Of a stretch of DNA of 64,000 nucleotides, positions 8,866 to 47,602 are shown one piece after another; position 1 is the first letter of the stretch; every line of letters starts with the position of its first letter. A model generated the notes under the pieces. That model had not been told where the DNA came from and did not search any database. It saw nothing but the letters and a program-made list of their open reading frames with translations. A program made the translations under genes and the position numbers. The stretch is from Lysobacteraceae bacterium NML93-0793 (GTDB lineage: Bacteria; Pseudomonadota; Gammaproteobacteria; Xanthomonadales; Xanthomonadaceae): NCBI GenBank assembly GCA_002324875.1, contig NTJG01000005.1, forward strand, positions 124,001 to 188,000, read 5' to 3'.

Positions 8866-10014
8866 TCACACCAGCACCAGATCATCCCGGTGCACGACGG
8901 TTTCCCCGTAGGTATAGCCCAGCGTCGCCTCGATATCGCGCGAATGCCGCCGTGCCAGCCGCCGGATGTCGTCGGCCGAATACTGCGTCACGCCCCGCGC
9001 GATCGGCTCGCGCGCATCGCCATCCAGCAGCGCGATCGTCACCAGGTCGCCGCGCCGGAACTGGCCCTCGGCGGCGAGCACACCACCCGGCAGCAGCGAG
9101 GCCCCCTTCTCGACCATCGCGTTCGCAGCGCCGCTGTCGACGAGGATCGCCCCGGCCTCCGCCGGCGCGTTCTGCAGCCAGTGCTTGCGCGCGGCCATGC
9201 GCGTGCGCAGCGGATGGATGCGGGTGCCCCGCAGACGATCGTGCGCGAGACCGTCCAGCACGTCGGCGCGGCGGCCGTTGAACAGCACCGTGGCCACGCC
9301 GGCCGAGGCCGCGCGCTGCGCGGCTTCCAGCTTGGTGCGCATGCCGCCGGTACCGACGCTGCTGCCGGCGCCGCCGGCGACCGCGAGCAGCGACGCGCTC
9401 ATCTTCGCGACCAGCGGCATCGGCCGCGCGTGCGCTTCGATCCGCGGGTCCGCGTCGTAGAGGCCGTCGATGTCGGTGGCGATGAACAGCACCTCGGCAT
9501 CGACCAGTGCCGCAACGATCGCGGCCAGGTTGTCGTTGTCGCCGAGCTTGAGTTCGTCGACCGACACCGTGTCGTTCTCGTTGACCACCGGCAGCGCGCC
9601 GTGGCGCAGCAGTGCGGTCAGCGTGGCGCGCGCATTGAGGTAGCGGCGGCGATTGCGCAGGTCGTCGTGGGTCAGCAGCACCTGGGCGACAGGGCGTTCG
9701 AAGAAGCCCTGCCAGAACCCGGTCAGTCGCGCCTGACCCAGTGCAGCGAGTGCCTGGCGCTCGGCCATCGGTGCACCGGGAGCGAGGTTCGCATGCAGGA
9801 TCGCGCGACCCGCAGCGACGGCGCCGGACGACACCAGAACGATCTCGCGCCCGGCCGCATGGCTCGCGCGGATGAAACCCGCGAGCGCCGCGGCATGCCG
9901 ATCCGACAGTCCTCCGCCATCGGCCGCGAGCAGGCTGCTGCCGACCTTGAGCACCGCACGTCGCCACGGCGGCAACGGCTGCTCGGGAAACACATCGGCA
10001 TCGGGCGTGTGCAT
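8866..10014 (-). CDS. proB: Glutamate 5-kinase
   Basis: This 382-residue cytoplasmic kinase phosphorylates glutamate at the gamma position, committing it to proline. The amino-acid-kinase domain covers about residues 17-270 (VLKVGSSLL, VSSGAVAAGR, NENDTVS, GTGGMRTKL), and a PUA domain follows to the C-terminus. Proline normally inhibits the enzyme. The ATG at 10014 gives the family length; an upstream frame to 10131 lies inside the yciI-like gene and adds low-complexity residues. It starts 13 bases after the yciI-like stop and is probably cotranscribed with the arg genes. Confidence 0.95.
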   Translation of the reverse strand: MHTPDADVFPEQPLPPWRRAVLKVGSSLLAADGGGLSDRHAAALAGFIRASHAAGREIVLVSSGAVAAGRAILHANLAPGAPMAERQALAALGQARLTGFWQGFFERPVAQVLLTHDDLRNRRRYLNARATLTALLRHGALPVVNENDTVSVDELKLGDNDNLAAIVAALVDAEVLFIATDIDGLYDADPRIEAHARPMPLVAKMSASLLAVAGGAGSSVGTGGMRTKLEAAQRAASAGVATVLFNGRRADVLDGLAHDRLRGTRIHPLRTRMAARKHWLQNAPAEAGAILVDSGAANAMVEKGASLLPGGVLAAEGQFRRGDLVTIALLDGDAREPIARGVTQYSADDIRRLARRHSRDIEATLGYTYGETVVHRDDLVLV

Positions 10015-10027
10015 CGCGGGGACGACC

Positions 10028-10285
10028 TCAGCGGGTGTTCCACTCGTGGACGACGAGGTCGCTCGCATTCTGCAACGCCAGCGGATCGGCCGCGACGATG
10101 GCCTGCGCTTCGGCCAGCGTGTCGATGCCACTCAGCAGGTATGCACCGCCGGTGCCGTCGGCGAATCCGCCGGTCATGTCGAGCAGACCACGCGCGCGCA
10201 GATCGTCGAGGAACGTCTGATGTGGCGCGACGACGGATGCGTCGAACCCGGGGCGGCGCATTGCGATGACGAGAAAGCGCTTCAT
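10028..10285 (-). CDS. YciI-like protein
   Basis: This 85-residue protein has the compact YCII-family fold pattern: a hydrophobic first strand with MKRFLVIAM, a conserved H in APHQTFLDDL near residue 22, and the GAYLLSG and DPLALQN motifs. Family members are small dimers related to ferredoxin-like monooxygenase folds; their reaction is mostly unknown. It sits between argH and proB, 30 bases after argH. No role in arginine or proline synthesis can be inferred beyond the position. Confidence 0.8.
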   Translation of the reverse strand: MKRFLVIAMRRPGFDASVVAPHQTFLDDLRARGLLDMTGGFADGTGGAYLLSGIDTLAEAQAIVAADPLALQNASDLVVHEWNTR

Positions 10286-10315
10286 GCCAGCAGGCCTATC
10301 AGTTGATGGAAACTG

Positions 10316-11611
10316 TCACGCCAGCGCGTTCCAGCGCGCACGCAGCGTGTCCAGACGGAGGTCGGCAGCGCCACCCGGCGAGGTGCGCGCGGCGAGGCTG
10401 CCTTCCGGCGTGCGGCCCTGCCCGGCCGTGTCGGCGCTCTGCGCGGCGGCCTTGTACGCCTCGCGGAACGGTACGCCAGCGATCGCGGCCTCGACCGCGA
10501 CATCGGTCGCGTACATGCCCGAGTCGACCGCCGCGCGCAGCCGGTCCTCGCGCCATTCCAGATTCGCCAGCAGTGCCGGCAGCAGCTCCAGTGCGGCGAG
10601 GCCGCGGCCGAAACCGTAGAAGATCGCGCCCTTGGAACTCTGCAGGTCGCGGTGGTAGCCCGACGGCAGCGACAGCAGATCCTCGATCTCGGTGCGCGCC
10701 GCGGCCACGCTGGCATGCGTGGCGCGCATCAGTTCGACGACGTCGGGATTGCGCTTGTTCGGCATGATCGAGCTGCCGGTCGTGTACTGCGCCGGCAGCG
10801 CGACGAAGCCGTACTCGGCGCTGGTGAACTGCGACAGATCCCAGGCCAGCCGGCGCAGGTCCAGGGTCGCGCTGCCCAGCGCTTCGAGCGCGGCCAGTTC
10901 GAACTTGCCGCGCGAGAGCTGCGCGTAGACCGGCGAGACCTGCAGCCGCGCGAAGCCGAGTACGGTGGTGGTGTGGTCACGATCGAGCGCGAGGTTCACG
11001 CCGTAACCCGCAGCCGTCCCGAGTGGATTGCAGTCGATCAGCGCCAGCGTGTCCTGCGCGCGCATCGCATCGTCGATGAAGGCCTCGGCCCAGCCCGACC
11101 ACCACATGCCGCCCGAGGACAGCACGGCGCGCTGGATATGGGTGTAGCCGGGAATCGGCAGCTGCGCTTCCGCTTCGGCGCGATCGAGTGCAACCTTTGC
11201 GATCTCGCGCGACAGCTCGACAAGACGCGCGAGCTTTTCCTTCAGCCACAGGCGCGTGGCGACCAGCACCTGGTCGTTGCGGCTGCGGCCGGTATGGATG
11301 CGGCGGCCGGCATCGCCGAGCCGCTCGGTCAACCGGTCCTCGATCGCCGAATGCCCGTCCTCGAAGCGTTCGTCGAGCACGAAGGCGCCGCTACGGAAGT
11401 CGTCGGCCAACAACGCCAGCTCGCGCTTCAGACCTTCGAGTTCTTCGGCCGACAGGATGCCGACGCGCTGCAGGCCTTCGGCGTGCGCGGTGCTCGCGGC
11501 GATATCGTGCAGGAAGAACTCGCGGTCGAGGATCACGTCGTCACCGGCGAGGAAGGCCTGGATCTGCGTGTCAACGGCGACGCCGGGCTTCTGCCAGAGG
11601 AGGTTGCTCAT
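10316..11611 (-). CDS. argH: Argininosuccinate lyase
   Basis: The 431-residue enzyme splits argininosuccinate into arginine and fumarate, the last step of the pathway. The superfamily signature loop [12 protein letters not shown] is present and carries the catalytic serine; [10 protein letters not shown] and TGRSRNDQV are also typical. The ATG at 11611 is chosen because upstream in-frame codons to 11695 are made of the intergenic heptad repeat and read as repetitive NPESPIP-type peptide. The protein is slightly shorter than the usual 450-460 residues, the missing part being at the C-terminus. Confidence 0.96.
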
Positions 11612-11630
11612 GTCGGGGCTCTCGGGAGTG

Positions 11631-11713
11631 GGGATTGGGGATTCGGGATTGGCAAGAGCGAGGATGCGCGGCTGGCGGGGTTCGCGAATCCCCATTCCCG
11701 AATCCCGAATCCC
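11631..11713. repeat. Inverted pair of heptad arrays between argC and argH
   Basis: The left arm 11631-11652 is built of GGGATTG/GGGATTC units and the right arm 11685-11713 of GAATCCC units in inverse orientation, with about 32 bases between them. The transcript could fold into a long stem between the argC stop and the argH start. The unit length is seven bases. Five further arrays of this family occur in the window. Confidence 0.8.
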
Positions 11714-11719
11714 GAAGAA

Positions 11720-12673
11720 TCATTGCGGAATCGACGTCAGCTCGTCGAAGCCCAGCGCGAGATTGAGGTTCTGCATCGCCTGCGTCGCCGCACCCTTGAG
11801 CAGGTTGTCGAGCGTCGCCACGACGACCACGCGGCCATTGCCCGGCGCCATCGTGAAGCCGCCGATCTGTGCGCCGTGCCGGCCGGCGATGCGGCTGACC
11901 CAGGGCGCCTCGTCGATCACCTCGACCAGCGGCTCGTCGGCATAGCGCGCATCGAACAGCGCCTTGACCGCATCGCGCGACATCGGCGCCGACAGCCACA
12001 GGTTCACGGTCATCGTGATGCCGCGGAAATGCGGCGCGACGTGCGGCATGAACTCCACCGGCATCGCCAGCTGCCTGGACACTTCGCGCTCGTGCACATG
12101 ATCGGTCAGTGCGTACGGCATCAGGTTGTCGGTCAGCAACGCGACGTTGTTCTTGTCCGACGGCGTGGTGCCCGCGCCCGAGTAACCTGAGACGCCGAAG
12201 CACTGCGGCGGGCCGGCCAGATGTCCGGCCAGCGGCGCGATCGCCAGCTGCATTGCGGTCGCATAGCAGCCGGGGTTGCTGATCCGGCGCTGGCCGGCGT
12301 AACCGGTGCGCGTGAGTTCGGGCAGGCCGTAATACCAGCCGGCGTCGAAACGGTAATCGGCCGACAGGTCGACGATCACGGTATCGGGCTTCGCGGCGTC
12401 TATCGCAGCGACGAACGGCGCAGCTTTGCCATTGGGCAACGCGAGGATCACCGCATCGGCGCCCTTGGCGGCGACCGCGTCCGCGTCGAGATTCTCGAAG
12501 CGCAGCTCGCCCTTCCAGCCGTCGTTGTGATCGGCGACGCGCTGCCCGTCGAGCTCGCGCGAAGACACGAACACGAGTTCGAGACCCGGATGCGCGGCGA
12601 CGAGGCGGACCAGTTCCTGGCCGGTGTGGCCGCGCGCGCCGACGATGCCGAGGCGGATGGGAGATGTGCTCAT
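11720..12673 (-). CDS. argC: N-acetyl-gamma-glutamyl-phosphate reductase
   Basis: The 317-residue cytoplasmic enzyme makes N-acetylglutamate semialdehyde using NADPH. The N-terminal nucleotide-binding motif [13 protein letters not shown] (9-21) and the catalytic Cys136 in SNPGCYATA are clear. The frame is open upstream to 12880, but the ATG at 12673 gives the normal start, and it overlaps the stop of the preceding acetyltransferase gene by four bases (ATGA), which points to translational coupling. Confidence 0.97.
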
Positions 12674-13272
12674 GGATGACTGTCCAGCTTGTGACGAAGA
12701 TGGCGACGCACCGCCGGCCACTCGGCGTCGATCACCGAGAACACCACGGTGTCGCGCAGCGAGCCGTCGGCATGCCGCTTGTGATGGCGCAGCACGCCAT
12801 CCTGTTTCGCGCCCAGACGCGCGATGGCCGCGCGCGAAGCGTGATTGAACCAGCTGGTCTCGAAGGCCACCGACGCGCACCCCAGCACATCGAAAGCATG
12901 CGTCAGCAACAGCAGTTTGGCTTCGGTGTTCAGGCCGGTGCGCTGCACCTGCGGCGCATACCAGGTGTAGCCGATCTTGAGGTTGGGGACTGTCGCATCG
13001 AGATCGTAGAAGCGCGTGCTGCCGACGACATTGCCATCGGTATCGAGCACCGCGAAGGCCAGCATGTCGCCGGCCGCCTGCGCGTCGAGCGCTTTCCCGA
13101 TGTAGCGCGACACGTCATCCGGCGCCGGCACGTTGGTGTACCAGAGCGTGTGCAGCGCGCTGTCGCGCGACACCGCGGCCAGCGCGTCGGCGTGCGCCGG
13201 TACCAAAGGCACCAGCGACACCTGCGTGCCGACCAGGGTCGGCACCTCGCGCCATGCGGCCGGAGCGGTCAT
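12670..13272 (-). CDS. GNAT-family acetyltransferase (RimJ/RimL-like)
   Basis: The 200-residue protein has the GNAT core: the [19 protein letters not shown] strands, the acetyl-CoA loop region [18 protein letters not shown], and the [15 protein letters not shown] segment typical of the RimJ/RimL group that acetylates protein N-termini or small amines. It is placed between the NAGS/kinase gene (one base away) and argC (four-base overlap). Because the fused NAGS/kinase already has a synthase domain, this protein is probably not the acetylglutamate synthase; its substrate is unknown. Confidence 0.82.
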
Positions 13273-13273
13273 G

Positions 13274-14599
13274 TCAGCCCACCAGGGTCGGGGCGCGCGT
13301 CTCGCAATGCGCGACGCAGCGCTGGATCTGCTCGAAGCCGTCGAGGCCGTACCAGAACACCTTCCACTTCTCCTGCTTGATGCAGCCGTCGGACTCGGCG
13401 TAATAGAAGATGTTGACCTGGTTGTGGTGGCGCGAACGCCAGAACAGCTGCGGCGTCTCGTCGCGCATCACGTTCCACACCGCGCGGCCGAGGCCCTCGC
13501 CCTGCGCGTCGTCGAGCACGGCGAACTTGTCCAGATACACCGTGCCCTCGCCGTCGGTCAGGATCACCGCGGCGCGGTAGTTCTCGCTCACGTAGGCGCG
13601 CAGCAGCGGCGTGCGTTCGAAGTAGTCCGGTGCGAGTTCGCGGCCGAAGCTCGATTCGATCAGCGACTTCAGGCGCGCGAGGTCCAGCTGCGACCAGTCG
13701 GTCACGCGCAGCACCTGCTCGCCGCGACGCACCAGCGTGCCCGAACCCTTGTGGGTGAACAGCTCCTTGGCGAGATCCGCCGGGCGCGTGATCGACACCG
13801 ACGAGGCCATCGGCAGACCTTCGAGCAGAGCCTTGATCTGTTCGATCTTCACTTTCATGCCGCCGTGAAGCCACGGCTGCTGGATCAGATGGTCGTATTC
13901 GGTCGACAGGTTGATCGAATCGATGACCTTGCCATCGGCGTCCAGAAGACCGCCAGTGCCGGTGAGGAAGATGATCTTGTAGGGCTGCAGTTCGCGCACC
14001 AGTTCGTTGGCGGCGAAGTCGGCATTGATGTTGAGAATCTGGCCCGACGCGGTTTCCCCCAGGCTCGTGATCACCGGGATCGAGCCGGCCTGCAGGCTGG
14101 CTTCGATCGGCGCGAGATTGACGCCACGCACCTCACCGACCAGGCCGTAGGTGGCCTGGTCGAGATACTCGGCCTCGAACACGCCGCCGGTGATCGAGGT
14201 CGCGCGCGCACCATTGCGCTGCAGCGCTTCGACCAAACGAAGATTGGCCGCCTGGAACACGCGGCGCACGATCGCCAGACCTTCGGGCGAGGTCACGCGC
14301 AGGCCGTTGACGGTCTTCTTCTCGATGCCGGCGGCGGACAGCTCAGCGTCGAGCTGCGGGCCGGCGCCGTGCAGCACGATCGGCGTCAGGCCGACCTCCT
14401 GCAGGAACGACAGCGAGGACGTCAGATCGTCGAGTTCGTCGCGCAGCACCGCGCCGCCGACCTTGACCACGGCAAAGCGCTTCGCGTCGAGCTGCGAAAA
14501 ACGCTTGAGGTACTGGCTGATCTCCTTCGCGCTGGCCATGCTGGAGAGCAGGCGCACGATGGTCTGGCGGGTCTGGACGTGGGTCGCGGGAATGTTCAC
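13274..14599 (-). CDS. argB: Bifunctional N-acetylglutamate synthase/kinase
   Basis: The protein (441 residues from the GTG at 14599) has two enzymes in one chain. Residues of about 20-285 are an N-acetylglutamate kinase ([29 protein letters not shown]), and about 290-440 a GNAT-type synthase domain ([23 protein letters not shown]). This matches the NAGS/K of Xanthomonas and the vertebrate NAGS fold. Starts at TTG 14608 and ATG 14539 are also in frame; the GTG is preferred because the family begins close to [13 protein letters not shown]. No strong Shine-Dalgarno site is seen for any of them. Confidence 0.93.
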
Positions 14600-14654
14600 G
14601 GGCTGCAATCGGTTGGGCGTGGAATGACGCGTTGAAGACGGAAGACGGCCGCGC

Positions 14655-15755
14655 TCAGCGCACGCCGTTGATGATGGTGTGCACGGACTCGGCGTAGCGC
14701 TGCAGTTGCTCGAACGTCACGAACTCGTCGCCGGTATGCGCCTGGGCGATGTCGCCGGGACCGTACACCAGCGCGGTGTAACCGCCGGCCGAGAACAGCG
14801 AGGCTTCAGTCCAGAAGTCGACCGCGTTGCCGATCGGCAGATCGAAGGCATCTGCGATGTCGCGCGCGGCGAGCCGGCGTTCTTCCGCACGTGCGATGTC
14901 GCCCGACGGCAGGCTCGGCCCGCGGAAGGTTTCCTCGAAATGCGCGGCCTCGGGCTCGGCGAAGCCGGCGAACGTCGACAGCAGACCGTCGACATCCATC
15001 GACGGCAGCGGCCGGAAGCCGAAGCGCAGCTCGGCGGCCGGCGCGATCATGTTGGCCTTGATGCCGCCCTCGACCCGGCCGATGTTGAAGCGCAGACCGG
15101 TCAGGCCACCGAAGCGTGCGTGGGCGAGCGACTCGACATGGTCCAGCGCACGGCCGCCCCAGCGCATTGCCTGGTGCAGCGCGCTTGCCGCCGGATCCTG
15201 TTTGCCGGATGCATGCCCGGCCGTGCCCGCGAAACGCATCAGCACCGAGCTGATGCCGCGATGCGCGAGCACCGCTTCGCAGTTCGTCGGCTCGGCGACC
15301 AGCACCGCCTCGAACTGCAGACCGCGTGCGAGGAAGGCGGCGATGCAACGCGGATCGTTGGCTTCCTCGTCGGACGAGAACAGGAACGCCGCATCGCCGT
15401 CGCCGGCATTGGCGGCCGCGATTAGCGCGGCCGCCGCACCCTTGATGTCGCAGACGCCGAGGCCGACCACGCGGTCGTCGAGGCGCCGCATCACGTGCGG
15501 ATCGGCGCTCCAGTCCGGCGAATCCGGCACGGTGTCCAGATGCACGTTGAACAGGATCTTCGGCGTGCCACGCACCGCGAACAGGCTCACAGCGCCAGCG
15601 CCGTGGTCGATGACCTCGACCTCGAAACCCGGCAACTGCCCGCGGATGTAATCGAAGATGCCGCCCTCGGCCGCGATCGCGCGCGGCGGATTGCGGGTGT
15701 CGAAGGACACCAGCCGTTCGAGGTGGTCGAGCGTATGGGAGAGCAGTTCGTTCAT
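14655..15755 (-). CDS. argE': N-acetylcitrulline (or acetylornithine) deacetylase, M20 family
   Basis: The 366-residue enzyme belongs to the M20/ArgE/DapE zinc hydrolases: the metal motif NVHLDTVPD, then [17 protein letters not shown] and VAEPTN are present. In Xanthomonas the gene at this position acts on N-acetylcitrulline because carbamoylation precedes deacetylation, and the neighbouring carbamoyltransferase here is of that kind. The substrate is therefore inferred as N-acetyl-L-citrulline. It lies between argG and argB with 55-75 base gaps, in the same orientation. Confidence 0.9.
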
Positions 15756-15829: not shown

Positions 15830-17071
15830 TCAGCGATTTACCTGCGCATACAAGGTGCTGCTCATGCCAAACAGCTTGATGAAGCCCTCGGCTTCCTCGA
15901 CGCCCCAGTCCGCCGACTGCGCATAGGTCGCGCCCTTGGCGTTGAGGATGTGCGGCGATGTCACCGCCACCGCGTCGACGCGGCCGCCGCGGGTTTCCAG
16001 CACCACTTCACCGGTGACCTTGGCCTGCGAGGATTGCAGGAACGCTTCGATGTCAGCCTTCAGCGGATCGTGGAAGAACCCCTCGTAGACCAGCTCGGTC
16101 CACTTGCGCGCGACTTCCGGCTTAAAGCGGTTCTGCTGCTTGGTCAGCACGGTCTCCTCGAGCGCGCGGTGCGCGGCGAGCAGCGAGACCAGGCCCGGCG
16201 CTTCGTACACGATGCGGCCCTTGAGGCCGATCACGGTGTCGCCGGTGTAGACGCCGCGGCCCACGCCGTAGGGCGCGAACAGGGCGTTGAGCTTCGCCAG
16301 GATCTGCGCGCCCGGCAGCGTTTCGCCATCGAGCGCGACCGCCGTGCCCTGCTCGAAGCGGACCTTGACCTGAAGCGGTGCCTCCGGCCATTCGGTGCGC
16401 GGCGCGCACCAGCCGCGCGCGCCCTCGCCCGGCGCTTCCCAGCGGTCGATCTCGCCGCCGGACATCGTCAGGCCCAGCAGGTTTTCGTTGATCGTGTAGG
16501 CCTGCTGCTTGGCGCGCACGCCGAAGCCGCGTTCTTCGAGATACCCCTGCTCGTAGGCACGCGTCTGCGTGTGTTCCTTCTGGATCTCGCGGATCGGCGC
16601 CACGATGCGGTACTCGCCCTGCGCCTTCACCGCGAGGTCGAAACGCACCTGGTCGTTGCCCATGCCCGTGCAGCCGTGCGCGATCGCATTCGTGCCCAGC
16701 TCGGCCGCGCGCGCGAGCGCGGCATCGACGATCAGATAACGGTCCGAAACCAGCAGCGGGTACTGGCCCTGATAGGCCTCGCCCGCCCAGACGAAGGGCT
16801 TGACGAAACCGTCCCAGATCGCCGGGCCACCATCGACGGTGACGTGGCTGGCGACGCCCAGCTCGGCCGCACGCTGCTCGATGAAGGCCCGCTCGTCGGC
16901 ATCGACGCCGCCGGTGTCGGCGAACACGGTGTGCACGGTCCAGCCCTGCTCTTTGAGATAGGGCACGCAGAAGCTGGTGTCGAGGCCGCCACTGAATGCA
17001 AGGACGATGTCTTTGGAGCTGTGATTGGTGATGGGTGATTCGTGATTCGAAGAAGCGGGCTGCTGCGACAT
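15830..17071 (-). CDS. argG: Argininosuccinate synthase
   Basis: The 413-residue cytoplasmic ligase joins citrulline and aspartate with ATP. The P-loop-like motif [10 protein letters not shown] and the [13 protein letters not shown] motif identify ArgG. The first 18 or so residues ([12 protein letters not shown] region) are encoded by the intergenic heptad repeat at 17021-17051, and there is no ATG, GTG or TTG in frame between ATG 17071 and the conserved SKDIVLAF. The repeat therefore appears to be part of the coding sequence. The rest has the usual length and order. Confidence 0.95.
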
Positions 17072-17156
17072 GGGAGTATCTCGTTACAAGAAGGATGAAG
17101 AAGGCGGGCGATCGGCTCTGGCTCTTTCGAATCACCAATCACCAATCACGAATCAC
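17021..17156. repeat. Inverted pair of heptad arrays at the argF'-argG junction
   Basis: A 31-base array of GATTGGT/GATTCGT units (17021-17051) and an inverse 31-base array (17126-17156) agree at 28 of 31 positions when one is reverse-complemented, with 74 bases between. The first array lies within the 5' coding end of argG, the second in the argF'-argG gap. A stable stem covering the argG start is possible in the mRNA. Confidence 0.8.
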
Positions 17157-17166
17157 AAGAAACGAA

Positions 17167-18180
17167 TTACGGCTTCATCAGCGCCGCCATCACGGCCTTC
17201 TGCACATGCAGCCGGTTCTCGGCCTCGTCGACGGCGATGCACTGCGGCGAATCCATGACGGCGTCGGTCGCCTTGACGTTGCGGCGCAGCGGCAGGCAGT
17301 GCGAGAACACGCCGTTGTTGGTCAGCGCCATCTTCCGCTCGTCGACGATGAAGTGCCGGTACTGGTCGCGGATGGGTTTTTCGGGCGCCCAGTTGCCGAA
17401 GAACGGCAGCGCGCCCCAGCTCTTGGCGTAGACCACGTCGGCACCGGCGTAGGCGCTGTCGATGTCGTGGCTCACGGCCAGCGAGCCGCCGCTCTCGGCG
17501 ACGTTCTGCTTCGCCCAGTCCATGTAGCGCTCGTCGAGCACGTAGTCCGGCGTCGGGCACAGCAGGGTCACGTCCATCCCCAGGCGCGTGGCGATGGTCA
17601 GCGCGGAGTTCGCGACCGCGGTGTTGAGCGGCTTGGGGTGGTAGGTCCAGGTCAGCACGTACTTCTTGCCGCGCAGATCGGACGTGCCGAAGTGCTCCTG
17701 CAGCGCCAGCGCATGCGCCAGCTCCTGGCAGGGATGGGTGATTGTCTCCATGTTGATGACCGGCACCGGCGAGTACTTCGCGAACGACTTCAGCACGATG
17801 TCCTGGCGGTCGTAGGCCCAATCGACGAACTTCGGGAACGCGCGCACGCCGATCATGTCGACGTAGCGGCCGAGCACGCGCGCGACTTCGGCGATGTGCT
17901 CCTCGGTGTCGCCGTCCATCACCGTGCCCAGCTCGAACTCGATCGGCCACGCGTCCTTGCCCGGCTGCAGCACGATGGCGTGACCACCGAGCTGGAAGGC
18001 CCCCAGTTCGAAGCTGGTGCGCGTGCGCATCGACGGGTTGAAGAACACCAGCGCGATCGAACGGCCTTTCAGCGCGTCGCCGAGCTTCTCGCGCTTGAAC
18101 GCGGCGGCGTCGGCCAGCAGGGCGTCGAGGTCGGGACGGGACCAGTCCTGCGTGTTGAGAAAGTGTCGGATCGCGGTCAT
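17167..18180 (-). CDS. argF': N-acetylornithine carbamoyltransferase
   Basis: The 337-residue enzyme transfers carbamoyl phosphate to N-acetylornithine, giving N-acetylcitrulline. The SMRTRTS carbamoyl-phosphate loop (50-56), HPCQELAHA and HCLPLRR motifs are intact. Glu93 in DGDTEEH and Lys303 in RRNVKATD correspond to Glu92 and the carboxylatable Lys302 described for the Xanthomonas enzyme, and the sequence is extended relative to ordinary ArgF around them. It is the first structural gene after the putative arginine attenuator and leads the arg/pro block. Confidence 0.94.
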   Translation of the reverse strand: MTAIRHFLNTQDWSRPDLDALLADAAAFKREKLGDALKGRSIALVFFNPSMRTRTSFELGAFQLGGHAIVLQPGKDAWPIEFELGTVMDGDTEEHIAEVARVLGRYVDMIGVRAFPKFVDWAYDRQDIVLKSFAKYSPVPVINMETITHPCQELAHALALQEHFGTSDLRGKKYVLTWTYHPKPLNTAVANSALTIATRLGMDVTLLCPTPDYVLDERYMDWAKQNVAESGGSLAVSHDIDSAYAGADVVYAKSWGALPFFGNWAPEKPIRDQYRHFIVDERKMALTNNGVFSHCLPLRRNVKATDAVMDSPQCIAVDEAENRLHVQKAVMAALMKP

Positions 18181-18251: not shown

Positions 18252-18276
18252 AAAAAACCCGGCATCGGCCGGGTCT
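18252..18276 (-). terminator. Attenuator terminator in the argF' leader
   Basis: Read on the minus strand, ACCCGGC-CGAT-GCCGGGT (a 7-bp stem, 18257-18274) is followed directly by six T residues, 71 bases before the argF' start. A terminator inside the untranslated leader of the operon makes sense only if read-through is controlled. The 5' arm with its flank, AGACCCGG (18269-18276), can instead pair with CCGGGGCT at 18315-18322 (seven of eight pairs), which would prevent the terminator. Confidence 0.75.
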
Positions 18277-18312
18277 TCTACAGAACAGTACGCACAGGCG
18301 AACGCGTCCCGA

Positions 18313-18417
18313 CTAGCCCCGGAGGATGTGGGCTTCCGGTCGACGCGCACGCGAGGTCATGCCCGACGCCATACGGGCGGAGGTCAGGATGTCGGCGTCG
18401 GCGCGGAGGGCGTTCAT
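18313..18417 (-). CDS. Putative arginine leader peptide of the argF' operon
   Basis: A 34-codon ORF (ATG at 18417, TAG at 18313-18315) contains six arginine codons at positions 5, 15, 23, 25, 26 and 33; three are clustered as R-A-R-R. The cluster lies just before segment 1 (AGCCC, 18330-18334), which pairs with segment 2 (GGGCT, 18315-18319) at the ORF end; segment 2 also overlaps the sequence able to pair with the terminator 5' arm. A ribosome stalled at codons 25-26 would mask segment 1 and favour antitermination, while one at the stop codon would mask segment 2. GAGG lies about 11 bases upstream of the ATG. Function is inferred from this geometry only. Confidence 0.6.
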   Translation of the reverse strand: MNALRADADILTSARMASGMTSRARRPEAHILRG

Positions 18418-18426
18418 GAGGCGCGC

Positions 18427-18455
18427 ATCCTCGCACGCGGAGCGCGGGGCTGCAA
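18427..18455 (-). promoter_or_regulatory. Possible promoter of the argF' leader
   Basis: On the minus strand, TTGCAG (18450-18455) and GAGGAT (18427-18432) are 17 bp apart in the only 54 bases between the preceding gene and the leader ORF. Transcription would start near 18420, so the leader ORF would be almost leaderless. The -10 box is poor and the call is tentative. Confidence 0.3.
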
Positions 18456-37892: not shown

Positions 37893-37985
37893 GGAGAGGT
37901 GTCCGAGTGGTTGAAGGAGCACGCCTGGAAAGTGTGTAAGCGTCTAAACCGCGCTTCGGGGGTTCGAATCCCCCTCTCTCCGCCA
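37893..37985 (+). tRNA. tRNA-Ser (anticodon GGA)
   Basis: The 93-nt gene has the long variable arm of serine tRNAs. The acceptor GGAGAGG pairs with CCTCTCC, the anticodon GGA is at 37927-37929 in the loop CTGGAAA, and CCA is encoded. An 18-nt copy of its 3' end lies at 38130-38147. Confidence 0.97.
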
Positions 37986-47511: not shown

Positions 47512-47602
47512 GGAGAGGTGGCAGAGCGGTTGAATGTACCTGACTCGAAATCAGGCAGGCGTTAATAGCGCCTCGGGGGTTCGAATCCCCCCCTCTCCGC
47601 CA
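47512..47602 (+). tRNA. tRNA-Ser (anticodon CGA)
   Basis: The 91-nt gene has the long variable arm, acceptor GGAGAGG/CCTCTCC and loop CTCGAAA with anticodon CGA at 47546-47548. CCA is encoded. Confidence 0.97.

Follow-up and report, generated by a model that had tools for sequence, protein, structure and literature searches.

A probable ribosome-mediated attenuator, related to the small RNA Xoo5, in the leader of a xanthomonad arginine operon

Leader-peptide attenuators control the trp, his, leu, ilv, thr and phe operons among the amino-acid operons of proteobacteria. Arginine is absent from this list, and a search of the open-access literature yielded no previous account of an attenuator for arginine in these bacteria. 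The preliminary description of the DNA studied here had likewise named no established arginine attenuator of this kind. The word arginine does not occur in the accessible part of the text of Naville and Gautheret 2010 (PMC2965389), and for the Actinobacteria the available portion of PMC1262725 records no conserved RNA structure upstream of arginine operons. The switch described below is of a textbook type, and it is its use for arginine synthesis that has no precedent found in the open-access literature.

The closest described RNA is Xoo5 (RF02242) of Xanthomonas oryzae PXO99, whose 5' end and short RNAs were established experimentally by others. According to the accessible text of Liang et al. 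2011 (PMC3039613), the 5' end was determined by 5' RACE with the farthest clone taken, and the catalogued 3' end, derived from cloned cDNA, lies upstream of the terminator. Bands of about 130 and about 100 nt were seen in early growth and later only the short one. Xoo5 was classed as an Hfq-independent sRNA to which no function was assigned there; it adjoins PXO_00353, which is named N-acetylornithine carbamoyltransferase in Table 4 of that paper, and neither flanking genes nor growth nor virulence are said to have changed in the sRNA deletions. Neither arginine nor leader appears as a word in the part of the text available. In the same Table 4, the proteins ArgG (PXO_00352) and ArgF' (PXO_00353) are listed with lower levels in the deletion of sRNA-Xoo1, an RNA upstream of thiC.

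The window analysed here is a stretch of 64,000 nucleotides from Lysobacteraceae bacterium NML93-0793 (contig NTJG01000005.1, positions 124,001 to 188,000), in which a block of arginine genes is read from the minus strand (Table 1). The labels argC, argH and proB in this block are our assumption. A GNAT acetyltransferase ORF (12670-13272, minus strand) is located between the kinase/synthase fusion and argC, and the start of argG lies between stretches (17125-17156 and 17015-17052) with repeated GTGATTGGTGATT-like and inverted AATCACCCATCACCAATCAC-like sequence. The leader in front of argF' is very probably a ribosome-mediated transcription attenuator of the arginine operon, as judged from its sequence and its comparison between genomes.

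Table 1. Features of the leader and of the arginine gene block in the window.
Feature	Position	Strand	Basis
Promoter: TTGCAG (18450-18455) -35-like, 17-nt spacer, extended TGC, GAGGAT (18427-18432) -10-like	18427..18455	-	
Likely transcription start, first base of Xoo5 match, 2 nt 5' of ATG	18419	-	
Leader ORF	18313..18417	-	34 codons + stop; sequence and conservation
Regulatory Arg-Ala-Arg-Arg codons CGT GCG CGT CGA	18340..18351	-	Arg kept at 3 positions, 81/81
Segment 1 (CCGGAAGCCC), partner of segment 2 and of the bases just 3' of it	18330..18339	-	Sequence, fold; weak alone
Segment 2 (CCGGGGCT), antiterminator 5' strand, overlapping stop codon	18315..18322	-	Conservation, folds
Segment 3 (AGACCCGGC), common to antiterminator and terminator	18268..18276	-	Sequence, conservation, covariation
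Segment 4 (GCCGGGT) and U-run, terminator 3' arm	18252..18263	-	Sequence, conservation
argF', N-acetylornithine carbamoyltransferase, first regulated gene	17167..18180	-	NF003384, OTCace domains
argG, argininosuccinate synthase	15830..17071	-	Pfam
M20 deacylase (argE-like) and fused N-acetylglutamate kinase/synthase	13274..15755	-	Pfam
Remainder of block: GNAT ORF, then (presumably) argC, argH, proB	8866..13272	-	ORFs; GNAT by Pfam

The leader ORF runs from the ATG at 18417 to the TAG at 18315-18313 and encodes the 34-residue peptide MNALRADADILTSARMASGMTSRARRPEAHILRG, with Arg at positions 5, 15, 23, 25, 26 and 33. The preliminary description had given this peptide and its six Arg codons with correct coordinates; the number of Arg codons is by itself not above chance. 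The Arg density of the window ORF falls within the range of shuffles, and in the scorable loci, 79 of 81, a mean of 45 in 100 dinucleotide shuffles reach the Arg clustering of the real ORF. The clustering of three Arg codons just before the RNA pairings was seen correctly, with the refinement that it is R23, R25 and R26 that matter, the last of them being an invariant CGA. Searches of the leader peptides against NCBIfam and Pfam gave no match up to E 1, and the identity of the peptide with the speF orf34 type (DUF2618) was rejected because no Pfam match appeared up to that value.

Of 574 loci confirmed in a scan with ArgF', the best 80 were used to examine conservation; together with the window they make 81 loci, and they come from Luteimonas, Lysobacter, Pseudoxanthomonas, Stenotrophomonas, Xanthomonas and a few others. 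A short ORF with synonymous change, predicted to be translated, precedes the operon in all 81, and Ser-Arg-Ala-Arg-Arg is kept in it with synonymous changes in every case; a strict motif match is obtained for the window and 79 of the 80 other loci, the exception (L004) having RRL instead of RRP. The first two Arg codons of this motif are CGT or CGC and the third is CGA in 81 of 81 loci, while CGG is used for none of the 243 Arg codons of the motif. Among the 219 Arg codons of nine window ORFs there are 3 CGA and 28 CGG. CGT, CGC and CGA should all be read by one tRNA with anticodon ICG, and among the 47 tRNA matches of the genome there is a single tRNA-Arg gene for each of the anticodons ACG, CCG and TCT. 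A covariance model of the leader (R1) matches in 145 of 149 family genomes. Seven family genomes lack an R1 match or have a weak one: G034 does possess argF' and the leader ORF (L139), in G110 argF' lies at a contig end, and in the other five no argF' match exceeds 39% identity.

Behind the ORF follows an intrinsic terminator (18274-18252, ACCCGGC-CGAT-GCCGGGT) with its U-run at 18252-18257. A terminator with a U-run after the leader, as had been described for the window, is present in 81 of 81 loci, and with a looser anchor ORF, terminator and complementary segment are found together in all of them. Over the 78 distinct rows all 667 of 667 terminator cells pair, 29 of them changed on both sides. 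The segments AGCCC (18330-18334) and GGGCT (18315-18319) are located where the preliminary description placed them; its pairing of CCGGGGCT (18315-18322) with AGACCCGG (18269-18276) holds at seven of eight positions, but includes one G.A mismatch. In a fixed register 93.9% of 527 antiterminator cells pair, with no covariation beyond shuffles, and 12 of the 78 distinct rows fail one antiterminator pair because the clade of the window uses a shifted register. One pair of the antiterminator varies among the 64 loci that have GCYGGG at the stop codon, a set selected on segment 2 alone: T-A in 53, C-G in 8, C.A in 2 and T.G in 1. A position-only permutation over 111 loci gave a weak signal, 63 of 2000 permutations reaching the observed mean, and none of 2000 did so when the 64 GCYGGG loci were used. 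All eight C-G loci (L117-L124) belong to family f12, and the compensatory change may therefore be a single event. Covariation of the stems, which the preliminary description had proposed to look for, thus exists in the terminator, whereas in the antiterminator it concerns one position and probably few events.

The competing folds were computed with RNA up to segment 3, in which 12 nt, a footprint taken from general knowledge, were masked for the ribosome. A ribosome placed on the CGA codon leads to a predicted antiterminator in 81 of 81 loci, as against 37 of 81 without ribosome; a ribosome at the stop codon prevents it in all 81, by construction. In a scan of stall positions the antiterminator appears in 78-81 of 81 loci when the stalled codon is any from the cluster's Ala up to the third one behind CGA, in 73 for the first Arg, in 39-53 upstream of the Ser of the cluster and in 9 one codon past the range; the stall codons that free segment 2 start inside the Arg cluster. 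Shuffled regions formed the antiterminator in only 107 of 810 cases. The hairpin of segments 1 and 2 was predicted in 81 of 81 loci, yet also in 622 of 810 shuffles, and the fold of the whole leader carried no signal (z -0.64). A consensus-based scan returned no entry for the promoter of the leader and none for its terminator. The significance of the leader features thus derives from their conservation in 81 of 81 loci and from the excess of the antiterminator over shuffles, not from single-sequence statistics. Some findings weigh against an attenuator, among them the 37 loci that are predicted to form the antiterminator without a ribosome.

The promoter is conserved as well. TTG with a 17-nt spacer occurs in 72 of the 80 loci in which a motif was found (81 tried), the -10 element ends 7-10 nt 5' of the start codon in 74 of these 80, and the likely start of transcription is 7 nt downstream of the conserved TTG-17-GAnnAT motif. 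At gathering level an Rfam search assigned the leader of the window to no family, including T-box or other known leader RNAs. A lax search returned RF02242 (Xoo5) over its full length with 36.7 bits against a cut-off of 50 (E 3.3e-6), the next-weaker match having E 0.008. The X. phaseoli locus (L061) scores 143 bits, and the gathering cut-off is passed by 8 of 13 other loci (L061 included again); the leader of the window is therefore a relative of Xoo5 that falls below the cut-off. In L061 the match starts 2 nt 5' of the leader ATG, and with the Xoo5 5' end at this place the leader mRNA is nearly leaderless. Transcription starting just before the ORF, and not downstream of 18252, agrees with the attenuator that had been proposed. 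In the window, both Rfam matches to sX4 (RF02223; 37879-38050 and 47502-47700, plus strand) each enclose a complete tRNA-Ser gene (37893-37985 gga and 47512-47602 cga), and the sX4 family may therefore be built on tRNA-Ser loci.

By its match and its place, Xoo5 is the same element as this leader, and it is best read as the leader RNA of an arginine attenuator. To the preliminary description it must be added that a transcript of this element had been catalogued before, as an sRNA. Some of the published Xoo5 data, namely the band sizes, the catalogued 3' end and the deletions, fit this reading imperfectly. The terminated RNA predicted for L061 is about 159 nt, longer than the two published bands, and a processed 5' end is possible since the accessible text of PMC3039613 names no pyrophosphatase step.

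These elements suggest the following course of events. The RNA would start about 2 nt 5' of the leader ATG, and a ribosome would translate the leader behind RNA polymerase. When charged tRNA-Arg of the ICG isoacceptor is scarce, the ribosome would stall at CGT-GCG-CGT-CGA and cover segment 1, so that segment 2 could pair with segment 3; no terminator would then form and argF'-argG and the next genes would be transcribed. With plentiful arginine the ribosome would reach the stop codon inside segment 2, and pairing of segments 3 and 4 would end transcription near 18252, leaving a short leader RNA that would correspond to Xoo5 of X. oryzae. In many loci pairing of segments 1 and 2 would favour termination if there is no translation. 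Stalling, the stall signal and the effect on the operon are what we infer from this arrangement. In the structural and evolutionary tests that sequence allows, the leader behaves as a ribosome-mediated attenuator would; with a conserved ORF, a covarying terminator and a start upstream, the attenuation originally suggested for the window gains support.

Beyond the family, the model R1 matches in at most 185 of 250 genomes of the order, an upper bound because the weak matches include chance terminators (L134, L135, L136) that do not lie before argF'. Of 20 matches that were fetched, 17 (L117-L133), which R1 itself had selected, precede argF' and three weak ones do not; Ser-Arg-Ala-Arg-Arg is also kept in loci of families f2, f3 and f12. 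Over the class R1 matched in 3 of 274 genomes at E <= 1e-6, all of the own family, and argF' in 8 of 321 at E <= 1e-60, four of them of the own family and four others 38-42% identical.

For a sample that does not depend on the model, 30 genomes from families f3-f11 were searched with ArgF'. After exclusion of the f8 genomes (no match above 42% identity), L159 (f3, contig start), L171 (f4, partial) and second copies, 18 evaluable distant argF' loci remained in f4-f7, f9 and f10, with 62-69% identity. A terminator and an ORF with an Arg cluster are found in 15 of the 18; L156, counted among these 15, coincides with L133. The other three (L148, L163 and L164, in f5 and f9) have neither such a terminator nor the leader, and ArgR was not found in their families either. 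The distant leader peptides are otherwise unrelated, with stretches such as NPRRRRVLQSTAG, LLRRRSRRPM, GRRARRTRRPLLAG, ALRRRRRSSQRRAG and PLRRRRMV. Such leaders, in which the Arg codons persist and little else of the peptide does, fit what a codon sensor predicts. Besides the conserved Arg codons in the relatives of the window, different Arg runs recur in distant families. The Arg cluster beats shuffles (<=6 of 100 reach it) in 12 of the 15 distant loci, the exceptions being L151, L158 and L160, and the antiterminator does so (<=3 of 100) in 10 of the 15, not in L150, L151, L153, L154 and L160. CGA makes up 25 of 92 Arg codons in 16 distant leaders (the 15 and L132) against 23 of 279 in argF' of 15 of these loci, with a Fisher p of 2e-5 that is too small because the rows are related. 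In L154 the part of the leader from the Arg cluster to segment 2 occurs a second time further upstream of argF'.

Repression by ArgR as the usual control had been raised in the preliminary description as an argument against attenuation. Against this argument, none of 60 family genomes gave a match to ArgR (PF01316), the repressor that our search covered, with control searches positive in E. coli and B. subtilis. In the order it occurs in 8 of 250 genomes, all of family f11; seven of these have no R1 match and the eighth (G188) a weak one at 2e-4, a level where chance matches occur. Six f11 loci carry a more distant argF relative (38-42%) and none of the six has such a terminator before it. Family f11 thus offers a natural comparison within one order.

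The strong conservation around the Arg codons deserves separate attention. In 80-81 of 81 loci the flanking Ala, Met, Thr, Ser and Ala do not vary; their codons differ synonymously where this is possible, and a codon sensor does not need these residues. Since the codon model leaves this conservation unexplained, it forms the basis for a further reading, in which the attenuator of the family gained a second sensor or output, either with ARMASGMTSRARRP as an arrest sequence that would sharpen the stall at the rare CGA or through an action of Xoo5 or the peptide in trans, for which peTrpL and rnTrpL of Sinorhizobium, which act in trans, serve as a model. We regard such an addition as tentative and rather unlikely. 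Much less probable is that arrest is the whole mechanism, with nascent ARMASGMTSRARRP, and not a shortage of charged tRNA-Arg, stalling the ribosome; free arginine might then be the ligand. The identical flanking residues and the SRARR motif of the f2, f3 and f12 loci would suit an arrest peptide, but the peptides of f4, f6, f7, f9 and f10 are unrelated save for the Arg cluster.

The attenuator also has to be weighed against readings that give the RNA or the codons another role. It is highly improbable that Xoo5 is an independent trans-acting sRNA on distant mRNAs and that its place before argF' is incidental. In the accessible text of PMC3039613, its Hfq-independence, its short size, the growth-phase dependence of its bands and a deletion reported to have no effect on flanking genes speak for such an RNA; the same source, as far as available, records no deletion phenotype, and in the best 80 of 574 loci argF' is without exception preceded by an ORF that varies synonymously, a terminator and an antiterminator. 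We give just as little credence to translational or Rho-dependent control, in which the Arg codons would alter the fold of the RNA or the access of Rho and intrinsic attenuation would play no part. The Salmonella speF leader orf34 senses arginine through two Arg codons in this way (PMC6386406, accessible text), but a clear, covarying intrinsic terminator with a U-run is present in 81 of 81 loci and argF' starts well beyond it. Least credible of all is coincidence, in which a chance ORF or an ordinary small protein gene would have a terminator of its own before an operon controlled otherwise: the Arg density of the window ORF, not above shuffles, and the restriction of the repressor search to PF01316 would permit it, but the Arg codons are placed within the permissive stall range, the rare CGA is invariant and different Arg runs occupy the same place in distant families.

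If the attenuator operates as proposed, it is a possible answer to the question of how xanthomonads and relatives could control arginine synthesis without ArgR. It would provide a likely function for a catalogued sRNA without known role, Xoo5, and arginine would join the amino acids whose synthesis is under leader-peptide attenuators. The leader resembles the classic attenuators in having codons for the end product in the leader ORF, a stop codon in segment 2, and an antiterminator and terminator that have a segment in common. It differs from them in its amino acid, arginine, in a nearly leaderless transcript, and in a usually compact Arg-Ala-Arg-Arg ending in CGA instead of a long run of codons. 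RF02242 matches it over the full length and likewise adjoins argF', whereas the catalogued RNA stops before the terminator. As far as the accessible texts go, orf34 of speF in Salmonella (PMC6386406) shares tandem Arg codons, a leader ORF of 34 codons and arginine sensing, but precedes a polyamine gene and acts through Rho and RNase G rather than as an intrinsic attenuator. rnTrpL/peTrpL of Sinorhizobium (PMC7298713, in the part available) is likewise an attenuator RNA starting at the leader ATG, but concerns tryptophan and has known trans functions. uORFC-8-2 before cysS in Rhodobacterales (PMC8632094, in the portion accessible) is a ribosome-mediated attenuator with two conserved codons that is supported, as is the present leader, by comparative evidence; its codons are for cysteine and its gene encodes a tRNA synthetase, whereas here arginine codons precede the genes of arginine synthesis.
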